A stretch of 64,000 nucleotides of DNA from Zhihengliuella flava (GTDB lineage Bacteria > Actinomycetota > Actinomycetes > Actinomycetales > Micrococcaceae): the NCBI RefSeq assembly GCF_015751895.1, contig NZ_JADOTZ010000001.1, positions 2,232,001 to 2,296,000 of the forward strand, read 5' to 3'. Each line of letters starts with the position of its first letter. The first letter of the stretch is position 1. The position numbers and the translations under genes were made by a program. Under the pieces are notes generated by a model. That model did not search any database. It saw only the letters and a list, made by a program, of their open reading frames with translations, and was not told the DNA's origin. Shown one piece after another: positions 1,778-38,540 of this stretch.

Positions 1778-3735
1778 GCACCCGCACCATGACGGTGGCC
1801 CAGGCCGTCGTCGAATTCCTCGGCCGCCAATACACGGTGGATACCGTTGGTGGGCAGAGCTACCGGGAGCGCTTGATCCCCGGGATGTTCGGCATCTTCG
1901 GTCACGGCAACGTCGCTGGCGTGGGTCAGGCGCTGAAGCAGTATCAGGCAGCGGATCCCACCCTGATGCCGTACTACCAAGGCCGCAACGAGCAGGCGCA
2001 GTCCCACCAGGCGGTCGGCTACGCCCGCCACACCCGCCGCCGGCAAACCTACGCGGTGACGACGTCGATTGGCCCGGGCTCGTCCAATCTCCTGACGGGT
2101 GCCGCCTTGGCCACGTCGAACCGCTTGCCGGTGCTGCTGTTGCCCTCCGACACGTTTGCGACCCGCGCCGCTGACCCCGTGCTGCAGCAGCTCGAACACC
2201 CGCACGGGTATGACATCACCGTCAACGATGCCTTCCGCCCGCTGTCCAAGTACTTTGACCGGGTCACGCGCCCCGAACAGCTGTTCTCCGCGCTGACCCA
2301 CGGATTGCGAGTCCTGACCGATCCGGCGGAGACCGGCGCGGTGACGATCTCCTTGCCGCAGGACGTGCAGGCCGAGACGATGGAGGTGCCGGAGGAATTC
2401 TTGGCCGAACGCGACTGGCGCATTCGCCGGCCCGCGCCCGAAGCTCAGGACATCGCCGAGGCAGCCCGGCGCCTTCGTGCCGCCCGGAATCCGCTGATCA
2501 TTGCCGGCGGTGGCGTGCTGTACGGCTTCGCCACCGAGCAACTCCGCGCCTTCGCCGAAGCCACCGGGATCCCCGTGGGCTGGACGCAGGCCGGCGTCGG
2601 CAGCCTGGCCTGGGACCACCCGCAGGCGGTGGGCGCCATTGGCTCCACCGGGACGACGGCGGCTAATGCGTTGGCCGCAGAGGCGGACCTGATCGTCGGG
2701 ATCGGCACCCGCTATGAGGACTTCACTACGGCCTCCCGCACCGCGTTCCAGAACCCTGCGGTGGAGTTCATCAACCTCAACGTTGCTGCCATCGACGCCT
2801 ACAAGCACGGAACGTCCCTGCCGATCGTCGCCGATGCCCGCAAGGGGCTCGAGGCGCTGCAGGAGGCCGTCGGAGGGGCCCGGGTCTCCGCTACGGTGAC
2901 TCAGCAGGTGGCGGAGGAAAAGGCCCGCTGGGACGCCACGGTGGACGCTGCATTCGCCGAGCGGTACAGCCCGCTGGTGAGCCAGAACGCCATTATCGGC
3001 GCGGCGAATCGCGCGATGGATCCCCGCGATGTGGTGGTGTGCGCGGCTGGCTCGCTACCCGGCGACTTGCACAAGATGTGGCGTGTGGCGGACCCGTACG
3101 GTTACCACGTCGAGTACGCCTACTCCTGCATGGGCTATGAGATCGCGGGCGGGCTGGGCGTCAAGCGCGCCGCGGTCGCCGAGGCGGACGGCCAGGACGG
3201 GCGCGACGTCGTCGTCATGGTGGGCGACGGCTCCTACCTCATGATGCACACCGAGCTCGTCACCGCGGTGGCCGAAGGCCTCAAGCTGATCGTGGTCCTG
3301 ATTCAGAACCATGGGTACGCGTCGATCGGCGCGCTGTCCGAATCCTTGGGGTCTCAGCGCTTCGGGACGAAGTACCGCACGTTGGACGCCGCACGCCACA
3401 CGTTCGACGACGGGGCCACGCTGCCCGTGGACCTAGCCACGAACGCGGAGTCCCTGGGCGCCACGGTCTACCGGATCGAGCCGGGGGAGACCGTCATCGA
3501 GGAGCTGGAAGCCGCGATTCAGCGGGCGAAAGCCGCCCCGGAGGGCAGCGGCCCGATCGTGATCCACGTGGAGTCGGACCCGTTGATCGATGCCCCGAGC
3601 TCCGAATCTTGGTGGGATGTGCCCGTCAGCGCGGTCTCCGCTTTGGAGTCCACCCAGCAGGCTTTCCAGACCTACACCGACCACAAGTCCCGGCAGCGCC
3701 CCCTCCTGGGTGGGCGGGCCCCGGGCGAAGCCTAA
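1774..3735 (+). CDS. iolD: 3D-(3,5/4)-trihydroxycyclohexane-1,2-dione hydrolase IolD
   Basis: A 653-residue thiamine-diphosphate enzyme, the usual IolD length. It opens the ring of trihydroxycyclohexanedione to 5-deoxy-glucuronate in the cytoplasm. It has the acetolactate-synthase layout: an N-terminal TPP-binding domain with the glutamate-containing stretch YYQGRNEQAQSHQAVGYA, a central domain starting around NPLIIAGGGVLYG, and a C-terminal domain with the TPP/Mg motif beginning MVGDGSYLMM and ending in the QNHGYAS asparagine. The ATG at 1774 overlaps the preceding stop and gives the standard N-terminus. A long open frame upstream of this ATG runs inside the previous gene and is not used. 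Confidence 0.95.
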   Translation: MSTRTMTVAQAVVEFLGRQYTVDTVGGQSYRERLIPGMFGIFGHGNVAGVGQALKQYQAADPTLMPYYQGRNEQAQSHQAVGYARHTRRRQTYAVTTSIGPGSSNLLTGAALATSNRLPVLLLPSDTFATRAADPVLQQLEHPHGYDITVNDAFRPLSKYFDRVTRPEQLFSALTHGLRVLTDPAETGAVTISLPQDVQAETMEVPEEFLAERDWRIRRPAPEAQDIAEAARRLRAARNPLIIAGGGVLYGFATEQLRAFAEATGIPVGWTQAGVGSLAWDHPQAVGAIGSTGTTAANALAAEADLIVGIGTRYEDFTTASRTAFQNPAVEFINLNVAAIDAYKHGTSLPIVADARKGLEALQEAVGGARVSATVTQQVAEEKARWDATVDAAFAERYSPLVSQNAIIGAANRAMDPRDVVVCAAGSLPGDLHKMWRVADPYGYHVEYAYSCMGYEIAGGLGVKRAAVAEADGQDGRDVVVMVGDGSYLMMHTELVTAVAEGLKLIVVLIQNHGYASIGALSESLGSQRFGTKYRTLDAARHTFDDGATLPVDLATNAESLGATVYRIEPGETVIEELEAAIQRAKAAPEGSGPIVIHVESDPLIDAPSSESWWDVPVSAVSALESTQQAFQTYTDHKSRQRPLLGGRAPGEA

Positions 3736-16349: not shown

Positions 16350-16368
16350 CTTGCTTAGGGCAACCTAA
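16350..16368. promoter_or_regulatory. DtxR/IdeR-type iron box
   Basis: The 19-mer ending in TTAGGGCAACCTAA matches 14 of 19 positions of the consensus TTAGGTTAGGCTAACCTAA by hand alignment, with 12 of 14 in the right part. It lies 52 bases upstream of a siderophore-interacting protein gene, so iron-dependent repression is expected. Confidence 0.75.
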
Positions 16369-16420
16369 CCTGAGTGCGCTGAGCTGCGCGCAATCCGTTT
16401 GGAAAGGGAACCCACGCGTC

Positions 16421-29882: not shown

Positions 29883-29919
29883 TCGTGCAGTAGTTCCAGC
29901 ATAGGCGTCAGCCACCCAC

Positions 29920-30057
29920 AAAAAAGGCTGGCGGTTTGAGGGCCCGTCTCCACTGCACCGGCCCGCCGCAGTGGGGCCGGTGCAGTGGGGCGATCGCGGG
30001 TTACCAAGCCGGACCGCCGGGAGGTCTCAAACCGCCAGCTTCACCACTTACCAAGCA
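29920..30057 (-). ncRNA. Predicted ~138-nt structured RNA ending in an intrinsic terminator-like U6
   Basis: Read on the minus strand, a perfect 14-bp stem joins 30026-30039 to 29927-29940 and is followed one base later by six U residues (29920-29925). Inside is a perfect 15-bp hairpin (29950-29964 with 29974-29988, 9-base loop). A promoter fits just upstream: TTTACT (30087-30092), 17 bases, TAGGCT (30064-30069), start near 30057. The iron box covers the -10. It is either a free small RNA or a terminated leader of the small membrane-protein gene. No known family is recognised. Alternatively it could be a nested inverted-repeat DNA element. Confidence 0.55.
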
Positions 30058-30075
30058 GAAATTAGCCTAACCTTA
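30057..30075. promoter_or_regulatory. DtxR/IdeR-type iron box over the RNA promoter
   Basis: Read on the minus strand the site begins TAAGGTTAGGCTAA, matching the consensus at 14 of 19 positions with an uninterrupted 12-base core AGGTTAGGCTAA. It overlaps the predicted -10 and start of the structured RNA, as expected for iron-dependent repression. The nearest plus-strand gene is about 300 bases away. Confidence 0.65.
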
Positions 30076-30370
30076 CTTCAATACGAAGTAAAGCCCTTTC
30101 GTAATTCGTGACTCTCCGCTACGCTGGCAGGCAACAGCGCATCGCTCGGCGGCTCGCCAGGCTCTGCAGCGGTACGCTGCGTGGAACTACAACGCCGGCC
30201 GGTGGCACGCGGGAGATGGACCCGGGTGTCGCCGGCCGGCGTCGTTCCGTGCGTCACCGCGCCTCGTTGCTGACACGCAGTGCAGCCGGACGCCGGGTGT
30301 CACGGGCCGAATCGGAGAGCGCAAAAGCGTTAGGCTGACGGTACACAGCACGCGCGGCGGAAGGATCACG
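30076..30370. other. Non-coding stretch upstream of the MBL gene
   Basis: No supported gene here. It holds a long imperfect hairpin at 30192-30242 (11 perfect outer pairs, inner pairs with one mismatch and one wobble) and a short TTAGGCTGAC similar to an iron-box half at 30330. The ribosome-binding site GGAAGGA serves the MBL-fold gene. Confidence 0.5.
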
Positions 30371-31222
30371 ATGACGCAGGAGCCCACGGACACTGGCTGG
30401 GAGCGAGCAGGGGAGCGGACCTACGTCCTGACCCTTGAGGCGTTCAAGATCAACATCGGGCTGGTGGTCGGTGATGACCGCGCGGTCGTGATCGACACGG
30501 GGGCCGGGCCGCGTGAGGCCGCGCAGATTCTGAACGCTGTGCGCGAGGTGACGGACGTTCCCCTGATCGTGGTCAACACCCATTCGCACGGCGATCACAC
30601 CTTTGGCAACGCCTACTTCGCTGCCCACGGCGTCGAGGAATTCTGGGCCCACACGGCCACGGCAGAAGCCGTGGCTGCGGACCCGGACGCTCAGCGCCGC
30701 ATGGTCGCCCGCACCGAACCAGAGATGGGAGCCCGGGAGGGCGAGCACACCGCGGTCCACACACCCACCCATACCGTGGGCGCCGAGCCCGTGGACCTTG
30801 ACCTCGGCGGACACTCCGTCACGCTGTTCTACCTCGGCCGCGGCCACACGGCCGGGGACCTATTGGTGGGATCTGGATCCGTCCTGTTCGCCGGAGACCT
30901 CGTGGAGGAGGGGGCGCACCCAGAATTTGAGGACTCCTTCCCGTACGACTGGCGCAAGACCCTCGGCAAGATCATCGCGATTGATGAGCTCTACACCTCG
31001 ATCGTTCCCGGCCACGGCCGCATCGTCGACGCCGACTACGTTCGTTCGCAGCTGGGCAACCTGCGCCGGGCTATCCGCATGTGCAGCACGGCCATCCACG
31101 AGGCGTCGGTGGACTACACGAAGGCCGTACCGGTGTTGCCCTACGGGCCCGTCCAATCCCGGTACCTGATCACTCGGTTGAAGGAAACGGAAACCGCCTC
31201 GGACACCGTTCTGCCGCACTAG
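30371..31222 (+). CDS. MBL-fold metallo-hydrolase
   Basis: 283 residues. The zinc-binding motif HSHGDH is at 71-76; further ligands are His in YLGRGHTAGD, Asp in LFAGDLVEEG and His in IVPGHGRIV. Cytoplasmic, no signal peptide. The group includes glyoxalase II-like hydrolases, quinone-cyclase-like and lactamase-like enzymes, and the substrate cannot be told. GGAAGGA lies before the ATG. The MFS gene begins 3 bases after its stop, so both are probably cotranscribed. Confidence 0.87.
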   Translation: MTQEPTDTGWERAGERTYVLTLEAFKINIGLVVGDDRAVVIDTGAGPREAAQILNAVREVTDVPLIVVNTHSHGDHTFGNAYFAAHGVEEFWAHTATAEAVAADPDAQRRMVARTEPEMGAREGEHTAVHTPTHTVGAEPVDLDLGGHSVTLFYLGRGHTAGDLLVGSGSVLFAGDLVEEGAHPEFEDSFPYDWRKTLGKIIAIDELYTSIVPGHGRIVDADYVRSQLGNLRRAIRMCSTAIHEASVDYTKAVPVLPYGPVQSRYLITRLKETETASDTVLPH

Positions 31223-33372: not shown

Positions 33373-34371
33373 ATGCCTCAGCCCCGTCAGCTCCCCCCGC
33401 TGGAGGAGGTCCTCGCCTCCGCGCACGTGGTGTCCATCCCCTTGCGCGTGCGCTTCCGCGGCGTCACTCATCGGGAGGCCGTCATCTTCACGGCCCCGGC
33501 CGAATCCGCCGAATTTTCCCCCTTCCTCGAGTACGGCGACGCGGAGGCCGCGGCGTGGCTCGCGTGCGCGCTCGAGGTCGGCTGGGAGGGCTACCCCACG
33601 CCCGTGCGGGAGTCGGTGCCGGTTAACGCGACGGTCCCCGCCGTCGCGCCCGAACAGGTTGAGGCCGTGCTCGGCCGGTACGACGCCGCCCACACCGTCA
33701 AGATCAAGGTGGCCGAGGCCGGTCAAACCCTGCACGACGACGTCGCCCGGGTCGAGCAAGTGCGCCGCCTGCTGCCGGACGCACACCTGCGCATCGATGC
33801 CAACGGGGGGTGGGACCACGAGCAGGCGCTCGCGGGACTCGAGGCGCTCGCCGGCTACGGGTTGCAATACGCTGAGCAGCCCGTGGCCGGAGTAGAACCT
33901 TTGGCCGCCTTGCGGGACGAGGTGCGCCGCCGCGAATTGCCCGTGCTCATCGCGGCGGACGAGGCTGTGCGCAAGGAGACCGATCCGCTGGCGGTGGCCC
34001 GCCTTGGCGCCGCCGATCTGCTGGTGATCAAGGCGCAACCGCTCGGGGGTGTCCGGCGCGCGCTCGGGATCGTTGCCGAGGCCGGGTTGCCCGCCGTGGT
34101 GAGCTCGGCGCTGGATACCTCGATTGGGACGCGCGCCGGTGCGGCGCTCGCCGCCGCCCTGCCGGAGCTGGACTATGCGTGCGGGCTCGGCACGGTCTCG
34201 CTCTTCGACGGGGACGTCACGCCCGCGTCATTCACGGCGCGCAACGGCGCTCTCCAGCTGCGCCGGGTGAGCGCGGATCCGGACCTGATGAGGCGTTTTG
34301 CGGCCCCAGAACCCCGTCAGCGGTGGTGGTTGGCGAGGTTACGCCGCTGCTATGAACGCTTGGTGAACTAA
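33373..34371 (+). CDS. menC: o-Succinylbenzoate synthase MenC
   Basis: 332 residues of the enolase superfamily. Visible catalytic elements are the lysine pair in VKIKV (110 and 112), metal ligands D142 in DANGGW, E168 in AEQPV and D196 in ADEAV, and K220 in VIKAQPLGG. It dehydrates SHCHC to o-succinylbenzoate in menaquinone synthesis. A TTGACA at 33323 lies 50 bases upstream. Other menaquinone genes in the window are menD (36723), menF (46066) and menG (47539). Confidence 0.93.
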   Translation: MPQPRQLPPLEEVLASAHVVSIPLRVRFRGVTHREAVIFTAPAESAEFSPFLEYGDAEAAAWLACALEVGWEGYPTPVRESVPVNATVPAVAPEQVEAVLGRYDAAHTVKIKVAEAGQTLHDDVARVEQVRRLLPDAHLRIDANGGWDHEQALAGLEALAGYGLQYAEQPVAGVEPLAALRDEVRRRELPVLIAADEAVRKETDPLAVARLGAADLLVIKAQPLGGVRRALGIVAEAGLPAVVSSALDTSIGTRAGAALAAALPELDYACGLGTVSLFDGDVTPASFTARNGALQLRRVSADPDLMRRFAAPEPRQRWWLARLRRCYERLVN

Positions 34372-34470
34372 TTGGTTCCCGGGGTTCATGTCGGCGCGAG
34401 GAAAAATTAGGGTTCGCTTGAAAGCTTGAGTGACGCACTCGTGTCCATACCAAGTCGAAAGAGACGGACG

Positions 34471-36594
34471 ATGTCACCCTTGCCCCAGAACCTGCTTAAC
34501 CTGCTGCCGATGGCCGGACATACGCGCGGAAATCGCGACGCGATGACGTGCCACTTCAAGTGCGGCGACGCCTGCGCACAGGCTGTGTGCAACACCAGCT
34601 CCAACTCCTACTTCCGGGATATCGCGAACTCCGCGCTCTCTCGCCGCGCGGCGCTCGGCCTCGGCGGCGTGGCCGCGGCCGTCGTCGTCGTGGGCCCCCA
34701 GATTGCGCACGCCCCGTCCGCGTCCGCTGACTTCGGCGGGTTCGGCAAGGGCGGCGGCAAGTTGCCCTTCAACGCGATCGACCCGGTGGAGCGCACGGTG
34801 GACACGGTCTCCGTCCCGGACGGCTACGACTGGGCGCCGATCATCCGCTGGGGTGACCCGCTGTTCAACGACTCGCCCGAGTTCGACGCCCAGCACCAGA
34901 CGGCTGCCGCTCAGGAAAAGCAGTTCGGCTACAACAACGATTACCTCAACATCATCGCGGACGGCGGCAACGGCCGCACCGGCGTGCTGGTCTGCAATCA
35001 CGAGTACACCAACGAATACATGATGTTTGACCCACAGTGGCAGGCCGAGAACGAGGACGAGGCGCGCCGCATCGCCTGGGCCGCGCACGGATTCTCCGTG
35101 GTGGAACTGACCCGCAAGAAGGCGGGGCAGAAATGGGAGTACGTCCGCGGCGGCCAGCGCAACCGCCGCATCACCGCCACCACGCCGTTCCGGCTCGACG
35201 GCCCGGCGGCCGGCTCCGAGCTGGTCAAAACGGTCGCGGACCCGGAAGGAATGACGGTTCTGGGAACCAACAACAACTGCGCCGGCGGCACCACCCCGTG
35301 GGGCACCATCGTCTCCGGCGAAGAGAACTTCAACCAGTACTTCCAGGGGCGCGGTACCGCCGAGGAAGCCCGCTACGGGATTGGCACCGGTGCGCCGAGC
35401 CGCGGCTGGGAGAAGCTCGACCCGCGCTTCTCGGCCCAGAACGAGGGATATGAGAACGAGGTGAACCGGTTCGGCTACATCGTGGAGATCGACCCGCAGG
35501 ACCCCACCTCCACCCCGGTCAAGCACACCGCGATCGGCCGCTTCAAGCATGAGGGCGCGAACATCAACATCGCCGCCGACGGCCGCGTGGTGGTCTACTC
35601 GGGAGATGACGAGCGCTTCGACTACGTCTATAAGTTCATCTCCAAGGGCAAGTACCGCGAGGGCGACAAGGCGCACAACATGACGCTGCTCTCCGAGGGC
35701 GACTTGTACGTGGCCCGCTTCTCCGAAACCTCCGCGGCGGAGATTGACGGGTCCGGGACCGTGCCCGCCGATGGCGCCTTCGATGGCGGCGGCGAGTGGC
35801 TGCCGCTGGTGAAGAACGGCACCTCCCGGGTCGACGGCATGAGCGTTGCCGAGGTGTTGGTGTACACGCGCCTCGCCGCTGACCAGGTGGGAGCCACCAA
35901 GATGGACCGGCCGGAGGACGTGGAGCCGAGCCCGCTCACCGGAAAGCTTTACATCGCCCTCACCAACAACTCCAACCGCGGTGCCTCCGGTTATGCGGGC
36001 GCTGACGAGGCCAACCCGGTCAACGGCAACCGCGACGGCCACGTGATCGAGCTGACGGAATCCGGAAGCGACGCCGCGGCGCTGACCTTCAACTGGAACA
36101 TCCTGTTGGTGGCCGGTGACCCTGCCGTGAGCAGTTCCACCTACTTTTCCGGGTACCCGGCGGAGAAGGTTTCACCGATTTCCTGCCCGGACAACCTGGC
36201 CTTCGACTCCCGCGGCAACCTGTGGATCTCGACCGATGGCGCTCCAGGGAAGATCGGTTACTGCGACGCGATCCACAAGGTTACCCTCACCGGTGACGAG
36301 CGCGGCCGTGTGGAGCAGTTCCTCGCCGTCCCAGCCGGCGCCGAGGCCTGCGGTCCGGTGATCCACGACCGGGAGAACTCGGTGTTCGTGGCCGTGCAGC
36401 ACCCGGGCGAGGGCGGCACCTACGATCAGCCCTACTCCCTGTTCCCGGATTTCAAGGACTCCCGCGAGTCCGCCGGTCTCGGCGAGTTCTATGGCCCCCG
36501 CCCGTCCGTCGTGCAGGTGTTTAGCACCCGCGGCAACAACGGTGTGGGCTTTAAGAAGCGCGCCGAGAAGGCCAAGTCGCTGCCGCGCACGTAG
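34471..36594 (+). CDS. phoX: PhoX-family alkaline phosphatase (Tat-exported, DUF839)
   Basis: 707 residues. A twin-arginine signal (ALSRRAALGLGGVAAAVVVV, Arg58-Arg59) follows a 50-residue N-region with several Cys residues, as in other PhoX proteins. The mature part is a beta-propeller of the DUF839 type with VLVCNHEYTNEYMMF, NNCAGGTTPWGT, SGEENFNQYF, MDRPEDVEPSPLTGKLY and NLAFDSRGNLWISTDG, which carry Ca/Fe ligands. Exported folded to scavenge phosphate from organic esters. The start at 34471 has AAAGAG upstream. It sits between menC and menD without obvious functional link. Confidence 0.88.
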   Translation: MSPLPQNLLNLLPMAGHTRGNRDAMTCHFKCGDACAQAVCNTSSNSYFRDIANSALSRRAALGLGGVAAAVVVVGPQIAHAPSASADFGGFGKGGGKLPFNAIDPVERTVDTVSVPDGYDWAPIIRWGDPLFNDSPEFDAQHQTAAAQEKQFGYNNDYLNIIADGGNGRTGVLVCNHEYTNEYMMFDPQWQAENEDEARRIAWAAHGFSVVELTRKKAGQKWEYVRGGQRNRRITATTPFRLDGPAAGSELVKTVADPEGMTVLGTNNNCAGGTTPWGTIVSGEENFNQYFQGRGTAEEARYGIGTGAPSRGWEKLDPRFSAQNEGYENEVNRFGYIVEIDPQDPTSTPVKHTAIGRFKHEGANINIAADGRVVVYSGDDERFDYVYKFISKGKYREGDKAHNMTLLSEGDLYVARFSETSAAEIDGSGTVPADGAFDGGGEWLPLVKNGTSRVDGMSVAEVLVYTRLAADQVGATKMDRPEDVEPSPLTGKLYIALTNNSNRGASGYAGADEANPVNGNRDGHVIELTESGSDAAALTFNWNILLVAGDPAVSSSTYFSGYPAEKVSPISCPDNLAFDSRGNLWISTDGAPGKIGYCDAIHKVTLTGDERGRVEQFLAVPAGAEACGPVIHDRENSVFVAVQHPGEGGTYDQPYSLFPDFKDSRESAGLGEFYGPRPSVVQVFSTRGNNGVGFKKRAEKAKSLPRT

Positions 36595-38521: not shown

Positions 38522-38540
38522 TAAGCAAAGGCTTGCCTAA
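38522..38540. promoter_or_regulatory. DtxR/IdeR-type iron box
   Basis: TAAGCAAAGGCTTGCCTAA matches 13 of 19 consensus positions, strongest in the right half (GCCTAA). It lies 63 bases upstream of the siderophore uptake operon, so repression under iron-replete conditions is expected. Confidence 0.68.

Follow-up and report, generated by a model that had tools for sequence, protein, structure and literature searches.

The minus strand of the window (the whole 64,000-nucleotide stretch of Zhihengliuella flava DNA analysed here) very probably carries, at 30092-29920, the gene of an iron-controlled small RNA with a DtxR box, which we have not found described. The complete reading is likely, at a somewhat lower level of confidence: a stand-alone, iron-repressed, trans-acting sRNA that would spare iron by base pairing. 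An iron-repressor-type box lies on the element's own promoter-like pair, as the sequence places it. The promoter-like pair, the box, the predicted folds and their conservation can be read directly from the DNA, as follows.

30092-30087, minus strand: -35 hexamer TTTACT (TTTACA in four relatives)
30075-30057, minus strand: predicted DtxR/IdeR-type operator TAAGGTTAGGCTAATTTCT, over the -10
30069-30064, minus strand: -10 hexamer TAGGCT, same letters in 5/5 element-bearing genomes
30056-30041, minus strand: 5' leader GCUUGGUAAGUGGUGA, unpaired and conserved, proposed seed
30039-30026, minus strand: 5' arm GCTGGCGGTTTGAG of closing stem P1, 14 bp with the 3' arm
30018-29989, minus strand: predicted hairpin P2, 30018-30012 pairing with 29995-29989
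29988-29950, minus strand: predicted hairpin P3, 15 bp, arms CCACTGCACCGGCCC (29988-29974) and GGGCCGGTGCAGTGG (29964-29950)
29940-29927, minus strand: 3' arm CTCAAACCGCCAGC of P1, 14 bp with the 5' arm
29925-29920, minus strand: six U's after one C, the U-run at the element's 3' end

The two hexamers are 17 nt apart in all five element-bearing genomes, and the predicted transcript start falls at about 30057-30056. In the predicted fold P1 encloses a short 3-bp helix, P2 and P3, so that P1, P2 and P3 make a three-way junction; P1 with the six U's is likely an intrinsic terminator. The first-pass annotation had described a 14-bp stem enclosing a 15-bp hairpin and followed by six U's, a promoter-like pair with 17-nt spacing, and a DtxR-type box whose uninterrupted 12-base core covers the -10; each lies exactly where it was placed. 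P2 is an addition to that description, and its loop (30008-30002) is a second copy of the leader's CUUGGUA, a motif present there in all three long-form sequences (G000, G001 and G002). By sequence criteria these long forms are non-coding, structured RNAs with a terminator-like end.

The segment 29921-30055 folds at -80.4 kcal/mol, against a mean of -56.35 (sd 4.17) for 200 shuffles, none of which folds as low (z -5.77). The window has a single perfect 14-bp inverted repeat, this one, whose arms are separated by 3-130 nt and which has a run of five or more T's no more than 3 nt beyond it; 60 simulated windows have none. The arrangement of stem plus promoter is unlikely to have arisen by chance.

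The box TAAGGTTAGGCTAATTTCT matches 12 uninterrupted positions of the DtxR consensus, AGGTTAGGCTAA, and takes the form GTAAGG(C/T)TAGGCTAA in all five element-bearing genomes. Taken alone it is weaker evidence, because the full 19-bp consensus has no match in the window at up to 3 mismatches and the 13-base core is no commoner than chance (10 matches at up to 3 mismatches, 6.3 expected; 11 of 100 shuffles reach 10). Over the whole genome the box pattern, at up to 2 mismatches, gives 15 rows that reduce to 10 distinct sites; the reversed pattern gives 11 rows. Matches on both strands occur at five of the 10 sites, namely the sRNA element and four sites that precede iron-type genes:

window 16355-16373: two-strand box before a siderophore-interacting-protein gene (16421)
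locus L103: two-strand box before a siderophore-interacting-protein gene
locus L107: two-strand box before a PLP-dependent decarboxylase gene, with a probable siderophore role
locus L109: two-strand box before a Peripla_BP_2 protein gene, FecCD next

The other five sites (L104, L105, L106, L108 and L110) match on one strand and are GC-richer, and beside four of them no recognisable iron gene was found. At L106 (about 1501) the weak box-like site is followed, about 75 nt on, by an aminotransferase class V gene, presumably the cysteine desulfurase gene sufS.

A matrix trained on the four two-strand boxes listed above ranks the 16355 box, one of the four, first in the window. The sRNA box comes second and the following box third, both outside the training set:

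window 38522-38540: DtxR-type box before a second siderophore-interacting-protein gene (38604)

The sRNA box scores 17.6 in the source genome and 12.1-13.4 in the relatives. Since the same kind of box precedes siderophore-type genes in this genome, control of the element by iron may be inferred. The element sits between two presumed members of the iron regulon (boxes 16355-16373 and 38522-38540).

From these features we infer transcription, repressor binding, pairing, targets and the direction of the effect. The element would be a gene of its own, making an sRNA some 137 nt long (about 30057-29920, minus strand). Iron-loaded DtxR/IdeR would cover the -10 and repress it, and iron shortage would release it. 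The RNA would consist of the unpaired leader GCUUGGUAAGUGGUGA and the three-way junction of P1, P2 and P3, ending at P1 and the U-run. Its leader, probably together with the P2 loop, would pair with mRNAs around their ribosome-binding sites and so lower the production of enzymes that contain or depend on iron and that the cell can do without, an iron-sparing response. We see the leader as the part that acts, because promoter, box and leader are conserved while the sequence downstream diverges.

Candidate targets were sought in the three long-form genomes with the 16-mer complement of the leader at up to 3 mismatches, the reversed pattern serving as control. There are 8, 12 and 9 matches per genome, one of them a self-match in each, hence 26 non-self sites; the control gives 15, 12 and 21, hence 48. 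As the sites show no overall enrichment (26 non-self against 48 reversed), only their placement argues for targets. Near a likely start (about -50 to +20) lie 9 of the 26 sites and 3 of the 48 control sites (L175, L176 and L243), all 74 having been inspected and the starts placed, once the matches were known, with a rough script and by visual reading. Fisher's test gives p 0.003, or 0.013 with orthologues collapsed by eye (6/20 vs 2/40); with unclear cases counted on both sides the figures are 10/26 and 6/48 (p 0.012). The near-start sites belong to six genes:

cysH, in G001 and G002 (Pfam PAPS/APS reductase)
phoX, in G001 and G002 (Pfam PhoX)
an FAD-oxidoreductase gene (Pfam), in G001 and G002, the gene before it being a Fer2 (2Fe-2S) reductase (Pfam)
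ilvD, in G000 (Pfam IlvD)
dapF, in G002 (Pfam DapF)
a small frame of unknown function, in G000 (L158)

Four of the six are linked to iron: cysH, phoX, ilvD and the FAD-oxidoreductase gene that follows the 2Fe-2S reductase. Both PhoX and IlvD require iron, and CysH carries CC and CxxC motifs, a pattern that we take as the mark of Fe-S APS reductases. The Fer2 reductase and FAD oxidoreductase genes are presumably genes of glycine-betaine breakdown. These four are suggestive as predicted targets. The candidate pairing site occurs in two genomes each for cysH and for the FAD-oxidoreductase gene; no ACCAAG was found in the cysH start region of G000, G021 or G072, the last two being carriers from a second genus described below. 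The ilvD of G001 and G002 matches the leader complement worse than that of G000. The phoX 5'UTR has ACCAAG in four of five species of the genus and ACCGAG in the fifth. G003 and G004, in which no sRNA was found, are among the four, so that either a copy was lost or is hidden there or the site has another reason. The phoX upstream region in the window (34360-34474) holds GTTCAT/GGTGAAC-like repeats, which we assume to be Pho-box-like.

Two further sites, in sdhA (codon 33) and in the ilvB leader peptide, were found in all three genomes with an 11-mer. Neither was counted: the sdhA site is part of a conserved coding stretch, and the 11-mer is unenriched (8, 8 and 11 matches, self included, the reversed pattern giving 19, 26 and 32). 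A conserved short peptide, MQNIITVLRVTKRVA, is encoded before ilvB at L116, L121 and L126 and is followed by a terminator-like stretch; this region looks like a branched-chain amino-acid attenuator. Ranking start regions by duplex energy (110, 47 and 53 of them) puts cysH and the small frame of L158 first, which is no independent test because these loci had been chosen by the pattern.

The same figures allow a non-pairing role to be weighed. An iron-controlled RNA that acts as a protein sponge or decoy, its leader being the protein site, would suit both the CUUGGUA common to leader and P2 loop and the lack of overall enrichment of leader-complement sites. We consider it unlikely, as a larger share of candidate than of control sites falls near a start; we know of no protein partner of this RNA.

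The pairing sRNA thus preferred has two neighbours in the window:

29835-29533, minus strand: downstream 100-aa gene, no Pfam match
30371-31222, plus strand: divergent upstream gene of a metallo-beta-lactamase-fold hydrolase (Pfam PF00753)

The element is present in two of the four other species of the genus examined (G001 and G002), flanked by the same two gene types; these relatives appear to be Zhihengliuella. A 283-aa frame resembling the hydrolase occurs at loci L003 and L004. Nucleotide identity is 74% over most of the query for G002 and 81% over the query's first 111 bases for G001. Promoter, box and leader are kept in both, and the leader GCUUGGUAAGUGGUGA is invariant across the three genomes. 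The G002 element sequence is also found in contig MLDA01000020, deposited as Kocuria polaris MS50-16.

A search of genome contigs with the 100-aa protein gave 453 loci, the best 80 of which were all scanned for the leader; the gap between the flanking genes was compared in two of these 80 (L010 and L011). In Zhihengliuella salsuginis (L011) both flanking genes are there and no RNA was found between them, in a gap of 190 bp (about 2810-3000) that measures 488 in the G002 contig and 535 in the window. This locus is a natural site without the sRNA. The G003 locus is identical to it, and the sRNA was found neither in G003 nor in G004. A scan of genome contigs with box plus P1 arm returned no match, because the relatives differ in one base of the box and one of the arm.

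The 100-aa gene begins 85 nt downstream of the element on the same strand, and with the terminator-like P1 and U-run this would suit a DtxR-controlled 5' leader or attenuator of that gene, with read-through or stop at P1. Three observations make such an arrangement improbable. First, CCTATGCTGG lies between terminator and gene in the window, L003, L004 and L010, and the TATGCT between them may be the gene's own -10. Second, L011, where CCTATGCTGG also stands before the 100-aa gene, has both without the RNA. Third, the RNA is placed elsewhere in the second genus.

This second genus (g18) emerged from a covariance model of the three long forms, which matches 7 of 395 family genomes at E<=1, among them two genomes of g18 (E 8.4e-5 and 7.1e-4). 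The element is present in two of its three genomes. These short forms keep TTTACA-17-TAGGCT, GTAAGGCTAGGCTAA and GCTTGGT (GCUUGGU in RNA), and their bodies are single hairpins, unrelated in sequence to the long forms, in a different genomic place and with no clear U-run. Compared by eye, the hairpins of the two genomes show compensating differences at two paired places. Upstream of both is an acyl-CoA-dehydrogenase-like gene (assigned by Pfam for L093 and by reading for L094). The exact pattern of box plus leader recovers the same five carriers among the 395 genomes, and the reversed pattern recovers none. With promoter, box and GCTTGGT leader recurring in five genomes of two genera, the iron-controlled sRNA first proposed by the first-pass annotation gains support.

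Among the covariance matches, G125 (E 0.005) was dropped as chance, its box and leader positions being unmatched, and so was G229 (E 0.84); a weak additional match occurs in G021 (E 0.359). By blastn over the family, eight of the 395 genomes give matches, five of which were dropped as 30-55-nt GC-rich matches to the P3 side with no box or leader.

Could the element be a chance terminator-like palindrome beside the DtxR box of another unit, or a mobile repeat? Its patchy distribution (3/5 genomes in the genus, 2/3 in the second) would fit, and we nevertheless hold this very improbable: promoter, box and leader are kept across two genera, the 60 simulated windows hold no such repeat, and the element is single-copy, with no match in plasmids and phages (blastn, E<=0.01) or, by exact pattern, in viral contigs. 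A scattered repeat, which would have spoken against the original proposal, is unlikely on the same grounds.

Compensatory changes, sought in Micrococcaceae relatives as that proposal suggested, are positive and lend modest support. In the three long forms 93.3% of cells are paired in the shared structure, against 34-53% for slid pairings, and one pair each has changed on both sides in P1, in the 3-4-bp helix beside it and in P2. No pair of P3 has done so in the three-sequence alignment; its sequence diverges strongly among relatives, and each still folds a hairpin there. In a shuffle test of these three rows only, the compensatory-pair count is reached by 93 of 500 and the covariation score by 39 of 500. 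That the leader is instead the 5'UTR of a short mRNA for a small peptide is hardly credible: a frame from a GTG in the leader remains free of stops over 45 codons in G002 and over 78 or more in G001, but it stops after 6 codons in G000, runs through the terminator in G001 with residues diverging from those of G002, crosses variable positions that include compensating pairs, and meets an unrelated hairpin at that point in the second genus.

Returning to the pairing sRNA, the five carriers together bring to mind a wider, tentative view, from which we lean marginally away. They might represent an undescribed, iron-sparing Micrococcaceae sRNA family that passes on just its iron-controlled promoter and its 5' GCUUGGU seed, with the body freely exchanged. 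One genus would have the three-way junction, in which the seed occurs a second time, and the other a single, unrelated terminator hairpin. Such a family would supply the iron-sparing RNA of a group in which our searches met none. Targets would include cysH in sulfate reduction, PhoX as an iron-dependent phosphatase, ilvD in the synthesis of branched-chain amino acids, and an oxidative pathway beside a 2Fe-2S reductase. If true, a shared promoter and leader with different bodies would make a good case for the study of sRNA gene evolution.

As the first-pass annotation had recognised no described family, so Rfam gives none at its cut-off in the window. Below threshold, 29900-30110 has 25 matches, with RyhB absent and microRNA models at the top, far under their cut-offs. 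No such RNA was found described for Arthrobacter, Micrococcaceae or Zhihengliuella in the titles and abstract openings of a partial full-text collection. Fur-controlled iron-sparing sRNAs are well known; of DtxR/IdeR-controlled ones, MrsI is the only example that we found. If our reading is true, the element would be a second one, opening the actinobacterial mechanism to simple genetics in relatives that we take to be non-pathogenic.

MrsI (ncRv11846) of Mycobacterium tuberculosis, in the excerpt of PMC8628891 used here, is about 100 nt long, has an IdeR box in its promoter, is expressed after iron starvation and acts through a six-nucleotide seed to repress the mRNAs of iron proteins. Our element, which we compare with MrsI by description only, likewise is actinobacterial and has a DtxR-family box in its promoter; the neighbours of MrsI given there, blaI-Rv1847, are unlike those of the Zhihengliuella element. 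According to the part of PMC9410917 consulted, RyhB is repressed with iron and spares it by pairing with mRNAs of iron-containing proteins, IsrR of staphylococci pairs through several single-stranded stretches, two of which lie in loops, and M. tuberculosis has no Hfq. The likeness to IsrR, as seen in that part, and to FsrA of Bacillus is that of Gram-positive iron-sparing sRNAs; these are under Fur control and have C-rich pairing stretches, whereas the Zhihengliuella element repeats CUUGGUA. With enterobacterial RyhB, which is Fur-controlled and Hfq-assisted, it would share regulatory logic. As a functional kind, the element would work like MrsI and RyhB, the likeness being one of logic.
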